A DNA stretch of 47,327 nucleotides from positions 1 through 47,327 of the forward strand of contig CAIYPD010000027.1 in NCBI GenBank assembly GCA_903928075.1. Reading direction: 5' to 3'. Source of the stretch: Candidatus Firestoneibacteriota bacterium. GTDB taxonomy: Bacteria; Oederibacteriota; D2-FULL-39-29. The notes beneath the pieces are model-generated. The model saw nothing but the letters and a program-made list of their open reading frames with translations, made no database searches and was not told where the DNA came from. Both the position numbers and the translations under genes were made by a program. Within the stretch, counting starts at the first letter, position 1, and every line of letters starts with the position of its first letter. Shown in pieces: positions 36,296-45,371 of the stretch.

Positions 36296-36913
36296 ATGAG
36301 CCGGTTTAACAATTTCAGTAAAATTGTAATGACTCTGCTCATTTTGAGCGCGGCGGCTTACTCTGAGGAAGAACGGCTGGATAAGGATAAAGAGGTAAAA
36401 GTAAACCTGACAAAATTTACCACCGCCGGAGGTTGGTACACTACCGGACAAGAAATGGTCCCGGTTTCTGAAAGTGACCCTGCGTTTGTTGAGGTTATTT
36501 TCCCCGCCGAGTGGAATATAGTAAAGATGATTATTTACTCAGGGAAGACCAAATATAGTAACGGAATTGACGGGACAAAAGATGTGGCCACCATGTATAA
36601 TTTCGAGATACAAACGAAAAACAAGCACGACGAGTTTCGGCTATTCCGTTCTTATTCCCAAAATACGGTAACAAAAATTGAGATAAAAGAGAAAGTAGCC
36701 GCCAAAGGCGTGAGAATAAAAATAATGCCTGTAAGGTTCGGTAGTGATAAAACTTTTGGAAGCGTGGCTTTTGAGATCTGGGGTTTTAAAGGGCCGATAC
36801 CCAAACAGGAAAAGATAAAGATAAAAACCAAAGAAGACGCAAAAAAAGCCTTGAAATTAAATGAAATAACGCCTGCAGAGTATATGCAGTTATTAAAAGC
36901 ACTTCCTGAATAA
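36296..36913 (+). CDS. Secreted protein with a discoidin-like (F5/8 type C) fold, function unknown
   Basis: Protein of 205 residues that I cannot assign to a named enzyme. A signal peptide covers about residues 1-23 (IVMTLLILSAAAYSEE). Residues about 30-170 form a beta-rich domain with the feel of a discoidin/galactose-binding module: FVEVIFPAEWNIVKMIIYS near its start and GVRIKIMPVRFG and FEIWGF near its end. A short charged tail (KTKEDAKKALKLNEITPAEY) resembles oligomerisation tails seen on small surface proteins. AAGGAGG precedes the ATG. The neighbour is a secreted subtilase, so surface display is plausible. Confidence 0.6.
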   Translation: MSRFNNFSKIVMTLLILSAAAYSEEERLDKDKEVKVNLTKFTTAGGWYTTGQEMVPVSESDPAFVEVIFPAEWNIVKMIIYSGKTKYSNGIDGTKDVATMYNFEIQTKNKHDEFRLFRSYSQNTVTKIEIKEKVAAKGVRIKIMPVRFGSDKTFGSVAFEIWGFKGPIPKQEKIKIKTKEDAKKALKLNEITPAEYMQLLKALPE

Positions 36914-37010: not shown

Positions 37011-39146
37011 ATGATAAAACAGAAAATACTCATCCATATTTTTGGGCTGGTTGTTTCTTGTGGGGCAGCCTGGGGTGGGAATATAGACCCTCTTATAAAT
37101 ATGATGTTCGACTCCAAAGGGCTTCCGGCACGCGCAATGTCGTTTAACTCCACGGCAAATGTCACCCTGGCAGGGACCGAACCCGTACTGAATGTTTTAA
37201 TAAAGACGAACAACGGCGTAGATAAAATAGCGGGTATCAAAGGGATAAAAATAAATTCAGTAGTTCAAAATATTGTCACTGCCTCTATGCCTTTAAGTTC
37301 GATCAAAGAATTAGCCGCCCTGAAAGGAATTGAATATATTGAAGCCTCCCGCAAGGTAAAACCCAACCTGGACTTGAGTCTGGTCAGCGCCAATATAGTA
37401 CCAATAAAAAACACATATAACTATAAAGGTTCCGGTATATTGGTGGGTGTCTTTGATTCCGGGATAGACTATTTATGCAAAGATTTCCGCAATGTTGACG
37501 GGACCACGAGGATAAAATACATCTGGGACCAGACCGGCACTGCCTCCGGTTCTTTTGTGAGTCCGGCAGGGTTTGCCTACGGCGTGGAGTATTCCCAATC
37601 CGCGATAAATACTTCTATATCAGGTGGTACGCATGTGCCGGAGACGGATGCGGAAGGGCACGGGACCCATGTTTCGGGTATTGCCGCCGGGAACGGCCTT
37701 GCTACCGGTAACTCCAAACCAGCCGGGGTCTACGCGGGTGTTGCCTCCGAGGCAGAAATTGTTTTTGTAAAGGCGAATCTGCAGAATTCCAATGTAGTCG
37801 ATGGGGTCAGCTATATCATGCAAAAAGCGGCAGCTCTTGGCAAACCGGTGGTGGTTAATTTGAGCCTGGGAACCCAGGACGGGCCTCATGACGGTACCTC
37901 GCTTTTTGAAACAGCGATAGACGGCCTGACAGCGCCGGGTAAGATAGTTGTAGCCTCAGCAGGCAATGAAGGTTCTGCTGCCGGCGGGAAGATACATTAC
38001 AGCGGAACGGCGACCCTGGCGACCAGCTCGATAACCGTAAGTTTAGTAAATAATATCCAAGCGTATTTTACCATGTGGTATAAGGGGGGATCTAACATCA
38101 GTGTGCAGGTAAAGACTCTGGGCGGAACAGTGTATCCCGCTTCTCCGGTTCAGGCCGGAAGTACTTATTCCACGAATACCTTGGAAGGTTTTATCACAAT
38201 TGACGCCTCCTCGAATCCCAACCCGTTAAACGGCGATAATAATGTTATTATCGCGGTTGATGACTCGGCAGGTCCTAAGGTCGCAACCGGACAATGGGTA
38301 ATAATAGTCAAAGGCGTGAGCCTGGCAGGCGGGGGAGCTTATGATATTTGGGCACCCTCCTCGGATTACTGCAGTTTTTTAGGTTATGACAACGATAAAA
38401 CATTGGCGGCTCCGGGAACCTGCAAAAAAGTAATTACCGTAGGTTCCTATACTACCAGAACGAGCTGGCAGGCTTTCGACAACAGTACCTATAGTATTAG
38501 TGGGGAGGTTGTGGGAACCGTCTCCTCCTTCAGCAGTTCCGGCCCCACCAGGGATAACAGGCACAAGCCCGAGATACTTGCGCCTGGGGCTATGATTGCA
38601 AGTTCCATCTCCCGTGATTACTCGTATGATACCCGGACCATAGTTACCGATGACTCGCATGCAGTTATGGGCGGGACCAGCATGGCGGCCCCGCATGTTA
38701 CGGGTCTTGTCGCCTTGCTTCTTCAAAAAAAGAAGAACCTAAGCGTAGATGAGGTCAGAACGGCTCTCACCTCCACGGCTTTCAGGTCAAGCTGGGATAA
38801 AAAAGAAGGCTTCGGGTTGATAAATGGGGTAAGCGCATTCCTGTCAATTACCGGCGCAATTTCCTCAGATGTGATAGCAGTAACGAACCCTTATCCGTAC
38901 CCGAACCCCGCAAGGGGCAGTTATGTAAACCTGGCTTACACGATGAATGCTGACTGTGACACGGTAATCAATTTTTACAACCTGGCCGGGGTGAAGGTAT
39001 CCATGGCGGCAAATCACAGTACGAACGGCTTTAACAAGTACACTTATGATGTCAGTAAAATGGCGCCCGGGGTTTACTTCTGCCAGATAACTGCGTCGGG
39101 CGGTGCCGTAAAGTCAAAAACAATAAAGGTTGCTATAATAAAATGA
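37011..39146 (+). CDS. Secreted S8 (subtilisin-like) peptidase with C-terminal sorting-type domain
   Basis: Protease of 711 residues. A signal peptide covers about 1-22, followed by a propeptide-like region (about 55-120). The catalytic triad is D149 in GVFDSGID, H217 in EGHGTHVSG and S557 in GGTSMAAPHV, with oxyanion N319 in ASAGNEGS. A beta-rich insertion lies at about 325-470. The last 86 residues begin NPYPYPNPARG and end in a KVAIIK-like strand, matching the Por-secretion-tail pattern of type 9 secretion cargo. The gene overlaps the following PorV-like gene (ATGA), so export and sorting are probably coupled. AAGGTG is the ribosome-binding site. Confidence 0.9.
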   Translation: MIKQKILIHIFGLVVSCGAAWGGNIDPLINMMFDSKGLPARAMSFNSTANVTLAGTEPVLNVLIKTNNGVDKIAGIKGIKINSVVQNIVTASMPLSSIKELAALKGIEYIEASRKVKPNLDLSLVSANIVPIKNTYNYKGSGILVGVFDSGIDYLCKDFRNVDGTTRIKYIWDQTGTASGSFVSPAGFAYGVEYSQSAINTSISGGTHVPETDAEGHGTHVSGIAAGNGLATGNSKPAGVYAGVASEAEIVFVKANLQNSNVVDGVSYIMQKAAALGKPVVVNLSLGTQDGPHDGTSLFETAIDGLTAPGKIVVASAGNEGSAAGGKIHYSGTATLATSSITVSLVNNIQAYFTMWYKGGSNISVQVKTLGGTVYPASPVQAGSTYSTNTLEGFITIDASSNPNPLNGDNNVIIAVDDSAGPKVATGQWVIIVKGVSLAGGGAYDIWAPSSDYCSFLGYDNDKTLAAPGTCKKVITVGSYTTRTSWQAFDNSTYSISGEVVGTVSSFSSSGPTRDNRHKPEILAPGAMIASSISRDYSYDTRTIVTDDSHAVMGGTSMAAPHVTGLVALLLQKKKNLSVDEVRTALTSTAFRSSWDKKEGFGLINGVSAFLSITGAISSDVIAVTNPYPYPNPARGSYVNLAYTMNADCDTVINFYNLAGVKVSMAANHSTNGFNKYTYDVSKMAPGVYFCQITASGGAVKSKTIKVAIIK

Positions 39147-40099
39147 AAAGAATACTTATGGTTATAATGCTTTTTGTCCTCACAGGCACCGCAAGAGCTG
39201 CTGACCTTGCCAATATCGGGGTTTCCACTGCTGTACTGCGGCTGGGCGGCGGAGTCAGAAGCGGGGGTATGGCCGATGTTTGTGCCGGTGTTTACGGCGG
39301 CCTGGATTCCCTGTACGGCAACCCCGCCGGGCTGCGTGTTGACGGTCCGGAATTCGGTGTAAGATATAATACTCTGTTCGGCGAGGTCAATGTGGGTTCT
39401 TTTTCCTTTGCCAACTCCTATAAATTCGGGAACCTGGGGGCCAGCCTGTTGTATCTGAATTACGGGGCTATCGATAAGATAGATGAATCAGGGATAATTA
39501 CCGGAAGTTTTGCCCCCTTTGATATACTTGCTACGGTCTCCTACTCAAGGAAGTTAGGCGCAGACTTAAGCCTGGGTCTCAGTGTCAAAGGTTTTACAGA
39601 ATTTATAGATAGTTATAATTTTGGAAGCGTAGTGCTTGATGCCGGAGCCTTGTATGAGGTCATAAGCGAACAGTTATGCGTTGGCCTGCTCATACAAAAT
39701 ATCGGTTTTAACATCAATGGGTTTCAGCTTCCGCTTAACATAAAGGCAGGGGCGGCGTACAGCGTTAACGGGTTACTGGCGGAGAATAAATCCAAAATTA
39801 AGGTTTTTAAAAGAGGTCAGGGCAATATTTCGGCTGAGAAGACAGACGATCATTTGACCATAGCCCTGGATGTTGAACTTCCATCGGGAGAAGATCCGGG
39901 CGTTAATGCGGGCCTGGAATACTGGTATCAGGATTTTGCGGTACGGATTGGTTATAAATTCCGGACAGGGGTATATAGTTCCGGCGGCTTCACCGCGGGC
40001 TTTGGCTTTAAATTTGCCGGCTACGAACTTAATTATGCCCTGGTACCGTACGGCGAACTGGGCATAAGCCATAATTTTTCCTTTGTTTTTAATTTATAA
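39143..40099 (+). CDS. PorV/PorQ-family outer-membrane protein
   Basis: Outer-membrane beta-barrel of 318 residues with a signal peptide (about 1-19). The segment GVRSGGMADVCAGVYGGLDSLYGNPAGL is the hallmark of the PorV/PorQ (UPF0164) family, and the protein ends in a strand closing with phenylalanine and a hydrophobic residue. PorV carries type 9 cargo proteins to their attachment machinery, and the coupled upstream gene encodes a cargo-like subtilase. No other type 9 component is in the window. A general FadL-like role is the alternative. Confidence 0.85.
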   Translation: MKRILMVIMLFVLTGTARAADLANIGVSTAVLRLGGGVRSGGMADVCAGVYGGLDSLYGNPAGLRVDGPEFGVRYNTLFGEVNVGSFSFANSYKFGNLGASLLYLNYGAIDKIDESGIITGSFAPFDILATVSYSRKLGADLSLGLSVKGFTEFIDSYNFGSVVLDAGALYEVISEQLCVGLLIQNIGFNINGFQLPLNIKAGAAYSVNGLLAENKSKIKVFKRGQGNISAEKTDDHLTIALDVELPSGEDPGVNAGLEYWYQDFAVRIGYKFRTGVYSSGGFTAGFGFKFAGYELNYALVPYGELGISHNFSFVFNL

Positions 40100-41505: not shown

Positions 41506-42810
41506 ATGAGTAAAATTACGGTTTTTGTGCTACTTGCAGCGCTATCTTTTTCCGGGGAGAATACTCTTACATTAAAGCAATGCGTGGAAACAGGTTTTGC
41601 AAATTCCTTAGAATTAAAAACTGCCGAAGAAACAATGCGCCAGGCTGAATTTACCGCGAAAAGGTATTTTGCCCCTTTTCTTCCGGCGGTTGATTTTTCC
41701 TTTGCCAATACTTTTCTGGGCTTTGATGACGCCGGAAGAGACATTGTTTTGGGTACGGTAAACCCTCATACTTATAACTCCTCGCTTTCGGTCTCCTATA
41801 ATTTCTATAATATGTTCAAAGACAAGGACCGCTACAGTTATTATCAGAAGAAATACTTCGAGGCAGAGGCAGCTTTTGCGTCAAAGAAACAGGAAGCGGC
41901 CTACGGCATAACAAGTTCCTATTATGAGGTTCTAAATTCCGAAAAAACGGTGCAGGTAAGAGAAAAAGCTTTGAGTCAGAGAAAAGAATATCTGAAACTT
42001 AGCGAAAGTCTTTTTCGCAGCGGCATTAAGTCAAAATCAGATTACTTAAACGCCCAGATCCAGATTAAAAAAAGTGAAGTGGCTCTTTGGGATGCAGAAA
42101 ATGATCTTAAAACTTCAAGAGCCGGACTTAATACGCGTCTGGGTATTCCCCCTGAAAAAGAAACTCTTTTACAAGACGATATTGAATATCTTGCGCCGCA
42201 GTATACTCTTGAAAAACTTATTCAGGCCGTCTTTGACGGTAATTTTGACTGGAAGAAAGCCTTACTGGCCCGCGACGCCGTGCTTATTTCTACCGCATTG
42301 GAAGAAAGGAATCTCTGGCCGGTAGTGCGGCTGGACGGGGCCTATGCGCTTTCCTTGAGCAGCTATTTGCTGGGAAATGCGGAATGGACTCATGCCGGAA
42401 GACTCGATCAAAATTCCGACTGGGGACTGAAACTGTCTGTCACCTATCCTCTCTTTGACGGAGAAGTAGCCTCTTTAAAATATGAACTGGCCAAATCCGC
42501 TCTGGCGGTTGAAAATTACAGCCTTGAGACCTTAAGAAGGGATCTTTTGGAAAAAGCAGTTGTCTATCTTAGTAATAATATAAAAGTCTTCTCGGAATTA
42601 AATTCATACCGGGAACAGGTGGAACTCGCAAAAGAAAGCATGGAGCTTATTAAAAACCGTTACCAGACCGGCATTGCTTCCTTTCTGGATCTAACTGACG
42701 CGGAATTGAACTACATCTCGGCGGAAATTGGTTACTACCAGATGATCTATACATTCAAAACCCAAAAATATAATCTGGACCGTTTAGCCGGAGTAAAATT
42801 ATTCTGGTAA
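41506..42810 (+). CDS. TolC-family outer-membrane efflux protein
   Basis: Protein of 434 residues with a short signal peptide (about 1-17) and two repeats of the outer-membrane efflux domain (about 25-220 and 235-430). Features are LTLKQCVETGFANSLELK at the start, long coiled helices with SLFRSGIKSKSDYLNAQIQ in the first half, and NRYQTGIASFLDLTDAELNY in the second. It should form a trimeric channel-tunnel. GGAGG precedes the ATG; a second ATG four bases upstream would stop after three codons. The adaptor and permease genes follow after a repeat-rich gap, so the three probably form one export system. Confidence 0.9.
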   Translation: MSKITVFVLLAALSFSGENTLTLKQCVETGFANSLELKTAEETMRQAEFTAKRYFAPFLPAVDFSFANTFLGFDDAGRDIVLGTVNPHTYNSSLSVSYNFYNMFKDKDRYSYYQKKYFEAEAAFASKKQEAAYGITSSYYEVLNSEKTVQVREKALSQRKEYLKLSESLFRSGIKSKSDYLNAQIQIKKSEVALWDAENDLKTSRAGLNTRLGIPPEKETLLQDDIEYLAPQYTLEKLIQAVFDGNFDWKKALLARDAVLISTALEERNLWPVVRLDGAYALSLSSYLLGNAEWTHAGRLDQNSDWGLKLSVTYPLFDGEVASLKYELAKSALAVENYSLETLRRDLLEKAVVYLSNNIKVFSELNSYREQVELAKESMELIKNRYQTGIASFLDLTDAELNYISAEIGYYQMIYTFKTQKYNLDRLAGVKLFW

Positions 42811-42811
42811 G

Positions 42812-42834
42812 TTTTGACATAAAAAATGTCAAAA
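42812..42834 (+). terminator. AT-rich hairpin directly after the TolC-family gene (weak terminator candidate)
   Basis: TTTTGACAT (42812-42820) and ATGTCAAAA (42826-42834) form a perfect 9-bp stem with a five-A loop, one base after the stop codon. Only TAGTTT follows, so termination would be inefficient. Confidence 0.4.
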
Positions 42835-42857
42835 TAGTTTATAAGGTTTGTAAGCAA

Positions 42858-42915
42858 AGCTTTTCTCGAGAGGAAGGATATATAGATGTCAACTACCGTT
42901 GACATAGCGAGATAA
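42858..42915 (+). repeat. 58-bp palindrome-centred element, copy 3
   Basis: Identical to the copies at 33015 and 34403 although it lies nearly 10 kb away. The MSTTVDIAR frame runs from ATG 42886 to TAA 42915. It is followed directly by GGTCCATAAA and the 10-bp tandem units. Confidence 0.93.
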
Positions 42916-42954
42916 GGTCCATAAAGGTCTGTAAGGTCTGTAAAGGTCTGTAAA
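42916..42954. repeat. 10-bp tandem repeat GGTCTGTAAA, short array
   Basis: Four units (one of nine bases) between the 58-bp element and box 1. It matches the longer array at 11825-11892. Confidence 0.85.
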
Positions 42955-43023
42955 GGTCTAAAATCGTTGAAAGATATTTAATTTTTTCGTGTATCTGTGT
43001 CATCTGGTTTTATCTGTGTCATC

Positions 43024-43059
43024 AGCTGCGCTTTCAGCAGCTAAGGTCTAAAATCTTTG
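43024..43059 (+). repeat. Hairpin with compensatory change and box (43.0-kb copy)
   Basis: AGCTGC pairs with GCAGCT, where the other two copies have GCCGC and GCGGC. The paired change keeps the stem. The GGTCTAAAATCTTTG box follows at 43045-43059. Confidence 0.75.
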
Positions 43060-43179
43060 CAGGGTATTTATGTAATTGCAAAACTCTTATCATGCTAAGC
43101 AGCCCGCCTCAGGAGGGTTGTTGTCTTGCACCTTGTACCTAGCACGAGAGCAAACGCACACTAAGAAAAAAGGAGAGAA

Positions 43180-44157
43180 ATGAAGCGTAAAATAATAATT
43201 GGAGTCATAGCCGCGGTACTTCTGGGTTTTGGCGTTTATTACGGCGTAAAAAATGTGGATTGGAAAAAACCTGGAAATTCGATTCCACAGGAGTTTAAGT
43301 TCAAAGAAGTAAAGAAAGGAAGCATAATTGACAAAATCGCCGAGGTCGGTAAACTTGAACCGGTGAGCCTGGTTAAAGTTAAATCAAATGTGACAGGGAC
43401 GGTTAAAAAAATATTTGTGGAAGAAGGGATGTATGTTAAGGAAGGGCAGAAGGTGGCGCTCATAAAACCGGGACGGGAGGCGGAGCAGTATCAAGAATCA
43501 GAAGTTTTGGCTCCTATTGCGGGGCTTGTGATAGAGAAGACCGTCGAGGAAGGGGATATGGTCACTTCCGGTCTCTCTGAACTTTCCGGCGGGACGGCCA
43601 TAATCTCGGTGGCCAACCTTGACAAAATGATAGTGAAAATTGATATTAACGAGGTGGATATTGGTTCAGTAAAGGAAGGACTGGCGTGCAAAGTTAAAGT
43701 TGAAGCTTTTGCGGCTAAAGCATATATCGGACGGGTTTTAAAAATCTCGCCCCGTGCTATTCCGAGCACCGACGGTAAAATAAATATTTTTAAAACAGAA
43801 ATTGAGATTACCACCCGTGCCCCCGAACTGCACACGGGTATGAAAGCAGTTGTGGAAATTGTTTTAAGAGAAAAAAACAATGTGCTTATCGCACCTGTTG
43901 AATGTATTTTTGAAGAAGACGGGGAACAATGCGCTTATCTGCGAAATGGGGAAATCTGGGAAAGGCGCATGGTGAAAACCGGCCTCTATGACGATGATAA
44001 TATCGAGATTGTGCAGGGCTTGCAGGAAAAAGAAAGACTGGCAACCACCCGGCCAGATGACTTTGAAAAGCTCTTCAAGGAAAAAGAGGAAAAAAAGGGC
44101 GAGGCCAAGCGGGGCGGGCGGCTTTACGGCACTCCACCGGCCGGTTTGATAAGATGA
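43180..44157 (+). CDS. HlyD/MacA-family periplasmic adaptor lacking the long coiled-coil hairpin
   Basis: Membrane-fusion-type protein of 325 residues with an N-terminal anchor (about 4-22). The first lipoyl half (VTGTVKKIFVEEGMYVKEGQ, about 70-95) and the second (VLAPIAGLVIEKTVEEGDMV) are separated by only some 15 residues, so the long helical hairpin that docks onto TolC in typical MacA proteins is missing. A beta-barrel domain (about 150-225) and a membrane-proximal domain (about 230-285) follow. AAAGGAGAG precedes the ATG. The stop overlaps the MacB-type permease gene. Confidence 0.88.
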   Translation: MKRKIIIGVIAAVLLGFGVYYGVKNVDWKKPGNSIPQEFKFKEVKKGSIIDKIAEVGKLEPVSLVKVKSNVTGTVKKIFVEEGMYVKEGQKVALIKPGREAEQYQESEVLAPIAGLVIEKTVEEGDMVTSGLSELSGGTAIISVANLDKMIVKIDINEVDIGSVKEGLACKVKVEAFAAKAYIGRVLKISPRAIPSTDGKINIFKTEIEITTRAPELHTGMKAVVEIVLREKNNVLIAPVECIFEEDGEQCAYLRNGEIWERRMVKTGLYDDDNIEIVQGLQEKERLATTRPDDFEKLFKEKEEKKGEAKRGGRLYGTPPAGLIR

Positions 44158-45371
44158 TGTTCTTTTCCATACTGAAAATGGGTTTTGATGAAATAAGATC
44201 CCATAAAATGCGTTCTATGCTTACCATGCTGGGCGTTATTTTGGGTGTGGCTTCCTTAATCACTTTGTTTTCTGTGGTGGAAGGGAGTAAAAAGAAATCT
44301 CTGGAATGGATGAAAGAAGTCGGCGGTTTTGAAAAAATGAGCGTTAGTGATCTGGAACTGAAAAATGCGGATAAATTGCGAATTAACAGATCCAAGGGCC
44401 GGACCTATCAGGATTCGGTCGCGCTCCTTGCCAAATGCGATTCCGTCAAATATGTCTCACCGGAAGTAAGCAAATGGTTTACGACCTCGTATAAGGGCAA
44501 AAATTACAGAGTGGGTGTTTACGGAGTTACCGATAATTTTCTCAAGATTAACAGCTACGAAGTGGCGTATGGCAGGTATATAACCGATTGGGATTTAGAA
44601 CGAAGATCCCGGGTCTGCGTCATTGGCACGCAGGTGGCGAAAGAACTCTTTAAAAATGAGTTCCCTTTAGGTAAAGATATGTTCATAAACGGCCAAAATT
44701 TTACCGTGGTAGGCATCATAAAAGAATATATAATGATGGCCGGTAAGCGTAACTCCCTGGGTTGGAAGAATAACTGGATATCTATCCCCATTACCACTAT
44801 GCAGGACCGTTTTACCGGTAATGATAGTTTAACTTATTTGAGCGTGCAGGTAAAAGACTCGACCCGGCTGGCGGAGACGGTTCAGCAGCTTAAAAATGTC
44901 CTTTTAAAAAGACATTACTACCTCGAGGATTTTTCCGTAGATACCAGAGAAGAGGCGGCGGAGAGAATGAAGCAGCAGAATATCATGTATACGGTCCTTT
45001 TGGGCTGTATCGGCGGCATCTCCCTGCTCGTGGGCGGCATTGGCATAATGAATATCATGCTCGCTTCAGTCACCGCGAGGACGAGAGAGATAGGTATAAG
45101 ACGCGCGCTCGGAGCCACAAAACTTAATGTACTCTCCCAGTTTCTGGTGGAAGCGCTGATAATAAGCGTGGTCGGCGGAATTTTCGGTGTTTTACTCGGC
45201 CTGGTCTTGGTTGAACTCTTCAGCCGGCTTCCTGAGATAGTACCTGCCCTGGATGCGGGGAATATTTTACTTGCGTTCTCCTTTTCTGTCTGTGTCGGCT
45301 TATTTTTTGGCGTCTATCCCGCGCGAAAAGCCGCCAACCTTAATCCGATAGACGCGCTAAGATACGAGTAA
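44154..45371 (+). CDS. MacB-type ABC transporter permease (MacB_PCD and FtsX domains)
   Basis: Membrane protein of 405 residues. An N-terminal helix (about 20-42, with SMLTMLGVILGVASLITLFSV) is followed by a periplasmic domain (about 45-275) and three C-terminal helices (about 280-400). GGIGIMNIMLASVTARTREIGIRRALGA is the FtsX-family signature before helix 3, and the end PARKAANLNPIDALRYE is typical of this family. It needs a separate ATPase of the LolD/MacB type, and none is encoded next to it. With the adaptor and TolC-family protein it likely forms an export or mechanotransmission complex. Confidence 0.9.
   Translation: MMFFSILKMGFDEIRSHKMRSMLTMLGVILGVASLITLFSVVEGSKKKSLEWMKEVGGFEKMSVSDLELKNADKLRINRSKGRTYQDSVALLAKCDSVKYVSPEVSKWFTTSYKGKNYRVGVYGVTDNFLKINSYEVAYGRYITDWDLERRSRVCVIGTQVAKELFKNEFPLGKDMFINGQNFTVVGIIKEYIMMAGKRNSLGWKNNWISIPITTMQDRFTGNDSLTYLSVQVKDSTRLAETVQQLKNVLLKRHYYLEDFSVDTREEAAERMKQQNIMYTVLLGCIGGISLLVGGIGIMNIMLASVTARTREIGIRRALGATKLNVLSQFLVEALIISVVGGIFGVLLGLVLVELFSRLPEIVPALDAGNILLAFSFSVCVGLFFGVYPARKAANLNPIDALRYE

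Follow-up and report, generated by a model that had tools for sequence, protein, structure and literature searches.

The window, the whole stretch of 47,327 nt that was analysed, is contig C27 of a Candidatus Firestoneibacteriota draft genome of 2.72 Mb (98% complete). It contains a gene for a putative secreted subtilase followed by a gene for a PorV/PorQ-family protein (Table 1). All three catalytic residues of the protease (Asp, His and Ser) are present in the motifs DSGID, GHGTH and GTSMAAPH, which start at residues 149, 216 and 555, and a putative signal peptide was read by eye. The nearest solved structure is CspB (4i0w, E 7.9e-40). Judged from its sequence, the type-9-like cargo-carrier pair is well supported as a real feature of the locus. 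Directly 5' of the pair, the window encodes a small exported-looking protein of 205 aa (36296-36913) with no Pfam match at E <=1. Further on, TolC-like, HlyD-like and MacB-like genes stand in a row (41506-45371) and form an ordinary tripartite export set.

Table 1. Features of the subtilase locus, with positions in the window.
Feature	Position	Strand	Evidence
Cargo: secreted CspB-like subtilase, 711 aa	37011..39146	+	Peptidase_S8 157.6 bits; catalytic motifs; CspB best solved match
Type A T9SS sorting tail of the subtilase	38898..39125	+	PF18962, TIGR04183; ends 6 residues before the stop
ATGA overlap, cargo stop/carrier start	39143..39146	+	Sequence, ORF coordinates
Outer-membrane barrel of the PorV/PorQ family, 318 aa; candidate carrier dedicated to the subtilase	39143..40099	+	NF033709; predicted fold near PorV chains 8gl6_F, 6h3i_F

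The sorting tail and the PorV-family barrel

Residues 630-705 of the subtilase matched the T9SS sorting domain PF18962 with 40.3 bits (cut-off 27, E 3.9e-10), and the tail also matched TIGR04183 with 34.6 bits (cut-off 23). Since it lies above both curated T9SS cut-offs, chance is no reasonable account of the match, and the view of the initial annotation that the tail is a type 9 secretion signal is borne out. The tail starts with PNPARG as that annotation stated; its length is about 81 residues from PNPARG to the end of the protein, not 86. FlgD_ig was not among the models listed for the tail in the Pfam and NCBIfam profile searches, and neither the type B tail model TIGR04131 nor the PorP/SprF family was listed for either protein of the pair at E <=1 in the same two collections. 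A fold predicted from the single subtilase sequence had a pLDDT of 32.8 and was of no use for the tail.

The downstream protein matched NF033709, the PorV/PorQ family model, with 125.4 bits (cut-off 90), and together with the ORF coordinates this confirms that a gene of that family directly follows the protease gene with a four-base overlap. As read from the sequence, such an overlap is likely to give translational coupling of cargo and carrier. The barrel scored below both equivalog models, with 50.8 of 250 bits for PorV and the higher 95.2 of 220 bits for PorQ. It had no Pfam match at E <=1, and thus none to a Pfam transporter model, and phmmer found nothing at E <=1 among the PDB sequences. 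Its fold, predicted from an alignment of five sequences (pLDDT 75.8, pTM 0.73), was nearest in Foldseek to the PorV subunit in the translocon structure (8gl6_F, E 4.5e-12), with TodX second (2e-7); in VIA-align the two were tied, with Z of 30.3 for PorV and 29.8 for TodX. Like the FadL/TodX transporters, the window protein thus belongs to this barrel superfamily by its predicted fold, but unlike them it is recognised by the PorV/PorQ family model and by none of the Pfam transporter models.

Recurrence of the pair in the genome and its relatives

The tail is not confined to the subtilase. A PF18962 search of the genome gave 4 tail matches, 3 of them over cut-off; a tail on contig C45, scored as a whole protein, reached 24.2 of 27 bits, just below it. 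A tail profile retrieved 14 tail proteins at E <=0.1, a count that includes self-matching, since 7 of the 14 tails from which the profile was built came from this genome; Pfam alone gives 4. Among the control genomes, 3 of 14 had sub-cut-off matches to the Pfam sorting-tail profile. The genome has 13 PorV-family matches, 9 of them over cut-off. A single gene split at contig ends seems to underlie the matches on C112 and C23, whereas C102 and C26 gave weak ones.

Seven of the 14 tail proteins have a PorV-family match within two genes. It lies directly downstream of the tail gene on C27, on C68, at C96:124691 and after the second tail gene of C45, and one gene further downstream for the first tail gene of C45. 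On C131 and C23 the PorV match precedes the cargo, and that on C23 is a fragment. The cargo beside these genes is diverse (a subtilase, a PQQ propeller, an NHL propeller), and the tail is common to all. The other seven tails, at C38, C96:143205, C64, C119, C125, C134 and C109, adjoin no PorV-family match, which, like the reversed order on C131 and C23 and the fragment on C23, counts against the route proposed below, although the tails on C134 and C109 reach the contig edge, where a missing PorV neighbour cannot be counted as real. By analogy, these orphan tails may share one carrier, as in Flavobacterium. By eye, the same seven form a second tail subtype, ending like WDGK..GIY.Y..D..GNKKTGK.

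We then compared 21 genomes of the phylum, nine of the same order and twelve others. In the nine genomes of the order, 23 tails passed the Pfam cut-off, and every one had a same-strand PorV match within two genes: directly downstream in 17, beyond the second of two tandem cargo genes in 4 (the tail being on the first), and directly upstream in 2. Given some 146 PorV matches in roughly 21 Mb, we estimate the odds of such a neighbour by chance at about 2% per tail, so that fewer than 1 of 23 would be expected. Outside the order, we sampled the first 70 listed tails that passed the cut-off, taking every third one, which gave 24 tails that represent seven genomes; 9 of the 24 had a same-strand PorV match within two genes, where one tail without a listed ORF was counted as a miss and some tails lie at contig ends. 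A wider set of 83 tail ORFs came from regions chosen for their tails, PorV or SprA and is therefore no random sample; it had PorV directly downstream in 34 (with a gap of <=20 bases in 28 of these), two genes downstream in 9, upstream in 10 and not at all in 30. The unpaired tails of these two sets count against the route proposed below. Counted from the PorV side in two distant genomes (G009 and G015), a tail gene was directly upstream of 22 of 41 PorV ORFs and within two genes of 30 of 41; this count covers 34 loci, not all of the 56 and 46 matches in these genomes, and one stop-broken PorV is counted twice. Because the pairing recurs in the genome and throughout its order, it is a habit here and no oddity, and the claim that coupling of a cargo with its shuttle is unusual is not supported for this organism.

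Each genome of the phylum has 7 to 66 PorV-family matches at E <=0.001. Some barrels of related genomes carry a C-terminal OmpA extension (L208:179-2155, 60.4 bits; L193:3869-5779, 65.2 bits) or a C-terminal TPR extension (L198:4876-6792; L220:4547-6373). Such extensions on some PorV proteins of G009 and G015 would fit a fixed anchor, as if tied to peptidoglycan or to other proteins.

The distance between tails tracked the distance between partner PorV proteins, with r 0.455 in G015 (n = 14; reached by 3 of 5000 shuffles) and r 0.687 in G009 (n = 9; 1 of 5000), and 37 non-redundant pairs shuffled within lineages gave r 0.465 (0 of 5000). When pairs with homologous cargo bodies were left out, r dropped to 0.199 in G015 (491 of 5000), 0.418 in G009 (3 of 5000) and 0.209 for both (14 of 5000). 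For 12 of 32 pairs, the pair closest in tail was also the one closest in PorV; once similar pairs were removed, this was so for 3 of 19. Co-evolution of tail and carrier is weakened as an explanation by both of these results. Since the co-variation was mostly lost without the homologous bodies and the nearest neighbours agreed in only 3 of 19, we conclude that pairs mostly duplicate as units and that a weaker link remains, which does not prove pair specificity.

SprA, motor, ring and sortase searches

The SprA/Sov channel, on which the idea of an export route depended, is encoded on contig C53 (11226-16655, 1809 aa). As a whole protein it scored 209.7 bits with TIGR04189, just above the cut-off of 200; in the genome search it appeared as fragments, all below that cut-off. 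TIGR04189 matches were found in 20 of the 21 phylum genomes, over cut-off in 3 of the 21 by genome-search scoring, and the lone genome without a match (G017) is 76% complete. Whole SprA proteins of three relatives scored 193.6, 263.9 and 243.6 bits, and the genus-mate G001 also bears SprA. A profile built from 15 SprA proteins of the phylum retrieved the PDB SprA 6h3i with E 3.5e-49. Pfam SprA_N had no match in the genome, and a conclusion of 'no SprA' from that model alone is false, as TIGR04189 recovers the protein. The placing of the pair outside the Bacteroidetes is likewise supported: the genome lies outside Bacteroidota, and the export channel is present. Neither of the objections foreseen by the initial annotation, a lack of SprA/Sov and a tail limited to this one protein, thus applies.

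The gene directly after SprA bears a tail in 9 of 33 SprA loci (L110, L112, L114, L115, L116, L117, L118, L121 and L124), and these tail-bearing proteins are mostly large. At least four of the other 24 loci (L104, L111, L120, L123) stop at the locus edge after SprA and so count neither for nor against such a neighbour. In the genome studied and its order, SprA is followed by a different gene, which has no tail, a point against the route proposed below.

The presence of SprA in 20 of 21 genomes, where it precedes a tail gene in some lineages, speaks against the reading of the tail as a generic FlgD-like C-terminal Ig-like domain with no export role, the barrel being a FadL-type small-molecule channel and the pair an ordinary operon, such as one for a protease and the uptake of its products. 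We consider this improbable. In hmmscan the C23 tail does pass FlgD_ig (29.3 of 27) and fail the sorting-tail model (21.7 of 27), and the fold of the barrel is common to TodX and FadL; but the window tail itself is over both T9SS cut-offs with FlgD_ig not listed, and cargo proteins as unlike as a subtilase and two kinds of propeller carry the same tail beside PorV genes. It is more improbable still that the PorV barrels are permanent anchors only and that the cargo leaves by another route, such as the TolC-HlyD-MacB set of the window or a type 2 system. That export set is nearby, and the OmpA or TPR extensions of relatives' barrels would suit anchors, but the adjacency of SprA and tail genes argues against it, and tails of this type are not known to be routed by TolC-HlyD-MacB or type 2 systems.

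GldK, GldL, GldM and GldN gave no match over cut-off in the 21 genomes, in searches whose controls included no genome known to have a T9SS motor. GldM had no match in any of the 21 genomes; its profile was silent in every control genome as well, so that this result does not demonstrate the absence of GldM. GldL and GldN each had one weak match in G002 (E 0.02 and 0.048), below cut-off, and among the controls GldN matched no genome and GldL gave sub-cut-off matches in 5 unrelated ones. GldK-like sub-cut-off matches occurred in 7 of 21 genomes (55.1 of 350 bits for the best in the genome studied) and likewise in 4 of 14 control genomes. The sortase PorU, a C25 peptidase, had no match in the 98% complete draft. 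C25 peptidases were found in 2 of the 21 genomes and reached 62.8 bits (in a copy cut by the locus edge) and 40.2 bits against a PorU cut-off of 420, scores that rule them out as PorU. The two genomes with a C25 protein, G009 and G018, are also rich in PorV, with 56 and 40 matches, which argues against a simple link with a sortase.

A complete but very diverged Bacteroidota-type T9SS might account for these results, if motor, ring and sortase lie beyond the reach of the profiles, the PorV paralogs are interchangeable and the gene neighbourhood reflects co-regulation. SprA itself was missed by Pfam SprA_N and lies only just over the TIGR04189 cut-off, so that motor proteins could be further off; the GldM and GldN profiles matched no control genome; and the GldK-like matches are there, although the controls have them too. 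Set against this are the lack of any GldK, GldL, GldM or GldN match over cut-off in 21 genomes and the many PorV-family genes beside cargo, when all type A cargo of Flavobacterium uses one carrier in the account excerpted from PMC12618676. On balance we regard a diverged T9SS as rather unlikely. We did not file the system as a canonical T9SS, because PorU was searched for and not found and a true positive control was lacking for the motor searches; the export route may be 'reduced', as the initial annotation suggested.

Comparison with known systems and a proposed route

Like the T9SS of Bacteroidota, the system described here combines SprA, matched at equivalog level, with a type A sorting tail and a PorV-family barrel whose predicted fold is PorV-like. 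It differs in belonging to another phylum, in having many PorV-family genes, many of them paired with cargo, in place of one shared PorV, and in having no PorU, GldK, GldL, GldM or GldN over cut-off. According to excerpts of PMC12618676, the common PorV of type A cargo is thought to be recycled, whereas type B cargo usually has its cognate carrier encoded directly downstream, thought to be stoichiometric and not recycled, and three orphan type B cargoes use one orphan carrier. An excerpt of PMC9143113 adds that the carrier may serve to anchor type B cargo. Like type B CTD and PorP/SprF pairs (SprB-SprF of Flavobacterium johnsoniae), the carrier here lies directly downstream, and several pairs per genome occur together with orphan cargo; unlike in those pairs, the tail is type A-like (TIGR04183) and the carrier is of the PorV/PorQ family. 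The window pair is thus arranged like a type B pair and built from type A parts.

PorZ of Porphyromonas gingivalis offers another parallel, as it keeps its tail, bound to its own PorV-like barrel PorQ (PMC10202324, in excerpt). As in PorZ-PorQ, an uncut tail would here be bound to its own PorV/PorQ-family barrel, the uncut state being our inference; PorZ-PorQ, in contrast, is a single pair serving the sortase complex, whereas here there are several pairs, with cargo that includes enzymes, and the searches revealed no sortase.

We put the probability at roughly 0.6 that the pair is one of several cargo-carrier pairs in a type-9-like route that depends on SprA and provides many of its cargoes with a PorV of their own. 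The subtilase, its tail, the PorV-family partner, SprA and the recurring pair are read directly from the DNA, and function is deduced throughout from sequence and gene order. In this route, Sec would take the subtilase to the periplasm, and loops of the dedicated PorV-family barrel would then catch its type A-like tail inside the SprA channel; passage through SprA and pair specificity are both suppositions. Cargo and carrier would then exit SprA sideways into the outer membrane, leaving the protease outside and presumably held by the carrier, and the overlapping genes would supply the two in matched amounts.

As PorU was not found, the tail is probably uncut and the carrier probably not recycled, so that each such cargo would need its own carrier, much as type B cargo does with SprF in Flavobacterium; if the carrier is indeed not recycled, the pairing of cargo and carrier follows. 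In a cell without a sortase, the carrier may remain attached to its cargo and serve as a surface anchor. A carrier that keeps its cargo is the simplest account in the absence of PorU, and the equal amounts it calls for would explain the overlapping genes. In Flavobacterium the cargo binds PorV loops within the SprA pore, and pulling the pair out needs energy, according to an excerpt of PMC10994853. We tentatively propose, as a possibility that we hold with less conviction than the route itself, a type-9-like system outside Bacteroidota with neither sortase nor GldLM, in which each cargo's own PorV paralog, made in matched amount, extracts the cargo from SprA and then anchors it, in some relatives to peptidoglycan through the OmpA extensions. 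No motor or ring protein was found over cut-off in the 21 genomes to account for the energy, which counts against the route, as does a barrel that falls below the PorV equivalog cut-off, scores higher as PorQ-like and has a fold common with FadL/TodX.

Several pairs of this kind suggest a form of a known export route that has gone unrecognised. If the route is real, type A cargo with a dedicated PorV separates tail type from carrier recycling, two properties joined in Flavobacterium, and raises the testable question of whether SprA can release cargo without GldLM. A SprA equivalog, tails and the numerous PorV-family genes in the phylum of Firestonebacteria, Goldbacteria and FCPU426 also widen the range reported for T9SS. 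Excerpts of earlier reports place T9SS in Bacteroidetes alone, on the basis of surveyed complete genomes (PMC4793230), call it exclusive to Bacteroidota (PMC12618676), allow that it may occur in other FCB phyla but nowhere else (PMC11285876), or confine it to the FCB phyla at most (PMC11205867). A paper on Goldbacteria (PMC7031533) names T9SS once, in its reference list, and among open-licence papers we found none on T9SS or SprA in this phylum, or on type A cargo with dedicated PorV genes. SprA-like proteins were also seen in records titled Elusimicrobia, Sumerlaeota, Coatesbacteria, Spirochaetia and Leptospiraceae (L107-L109, L113, L116, L119, L126-L128), which lie outside the FCB phyla named in those papers.
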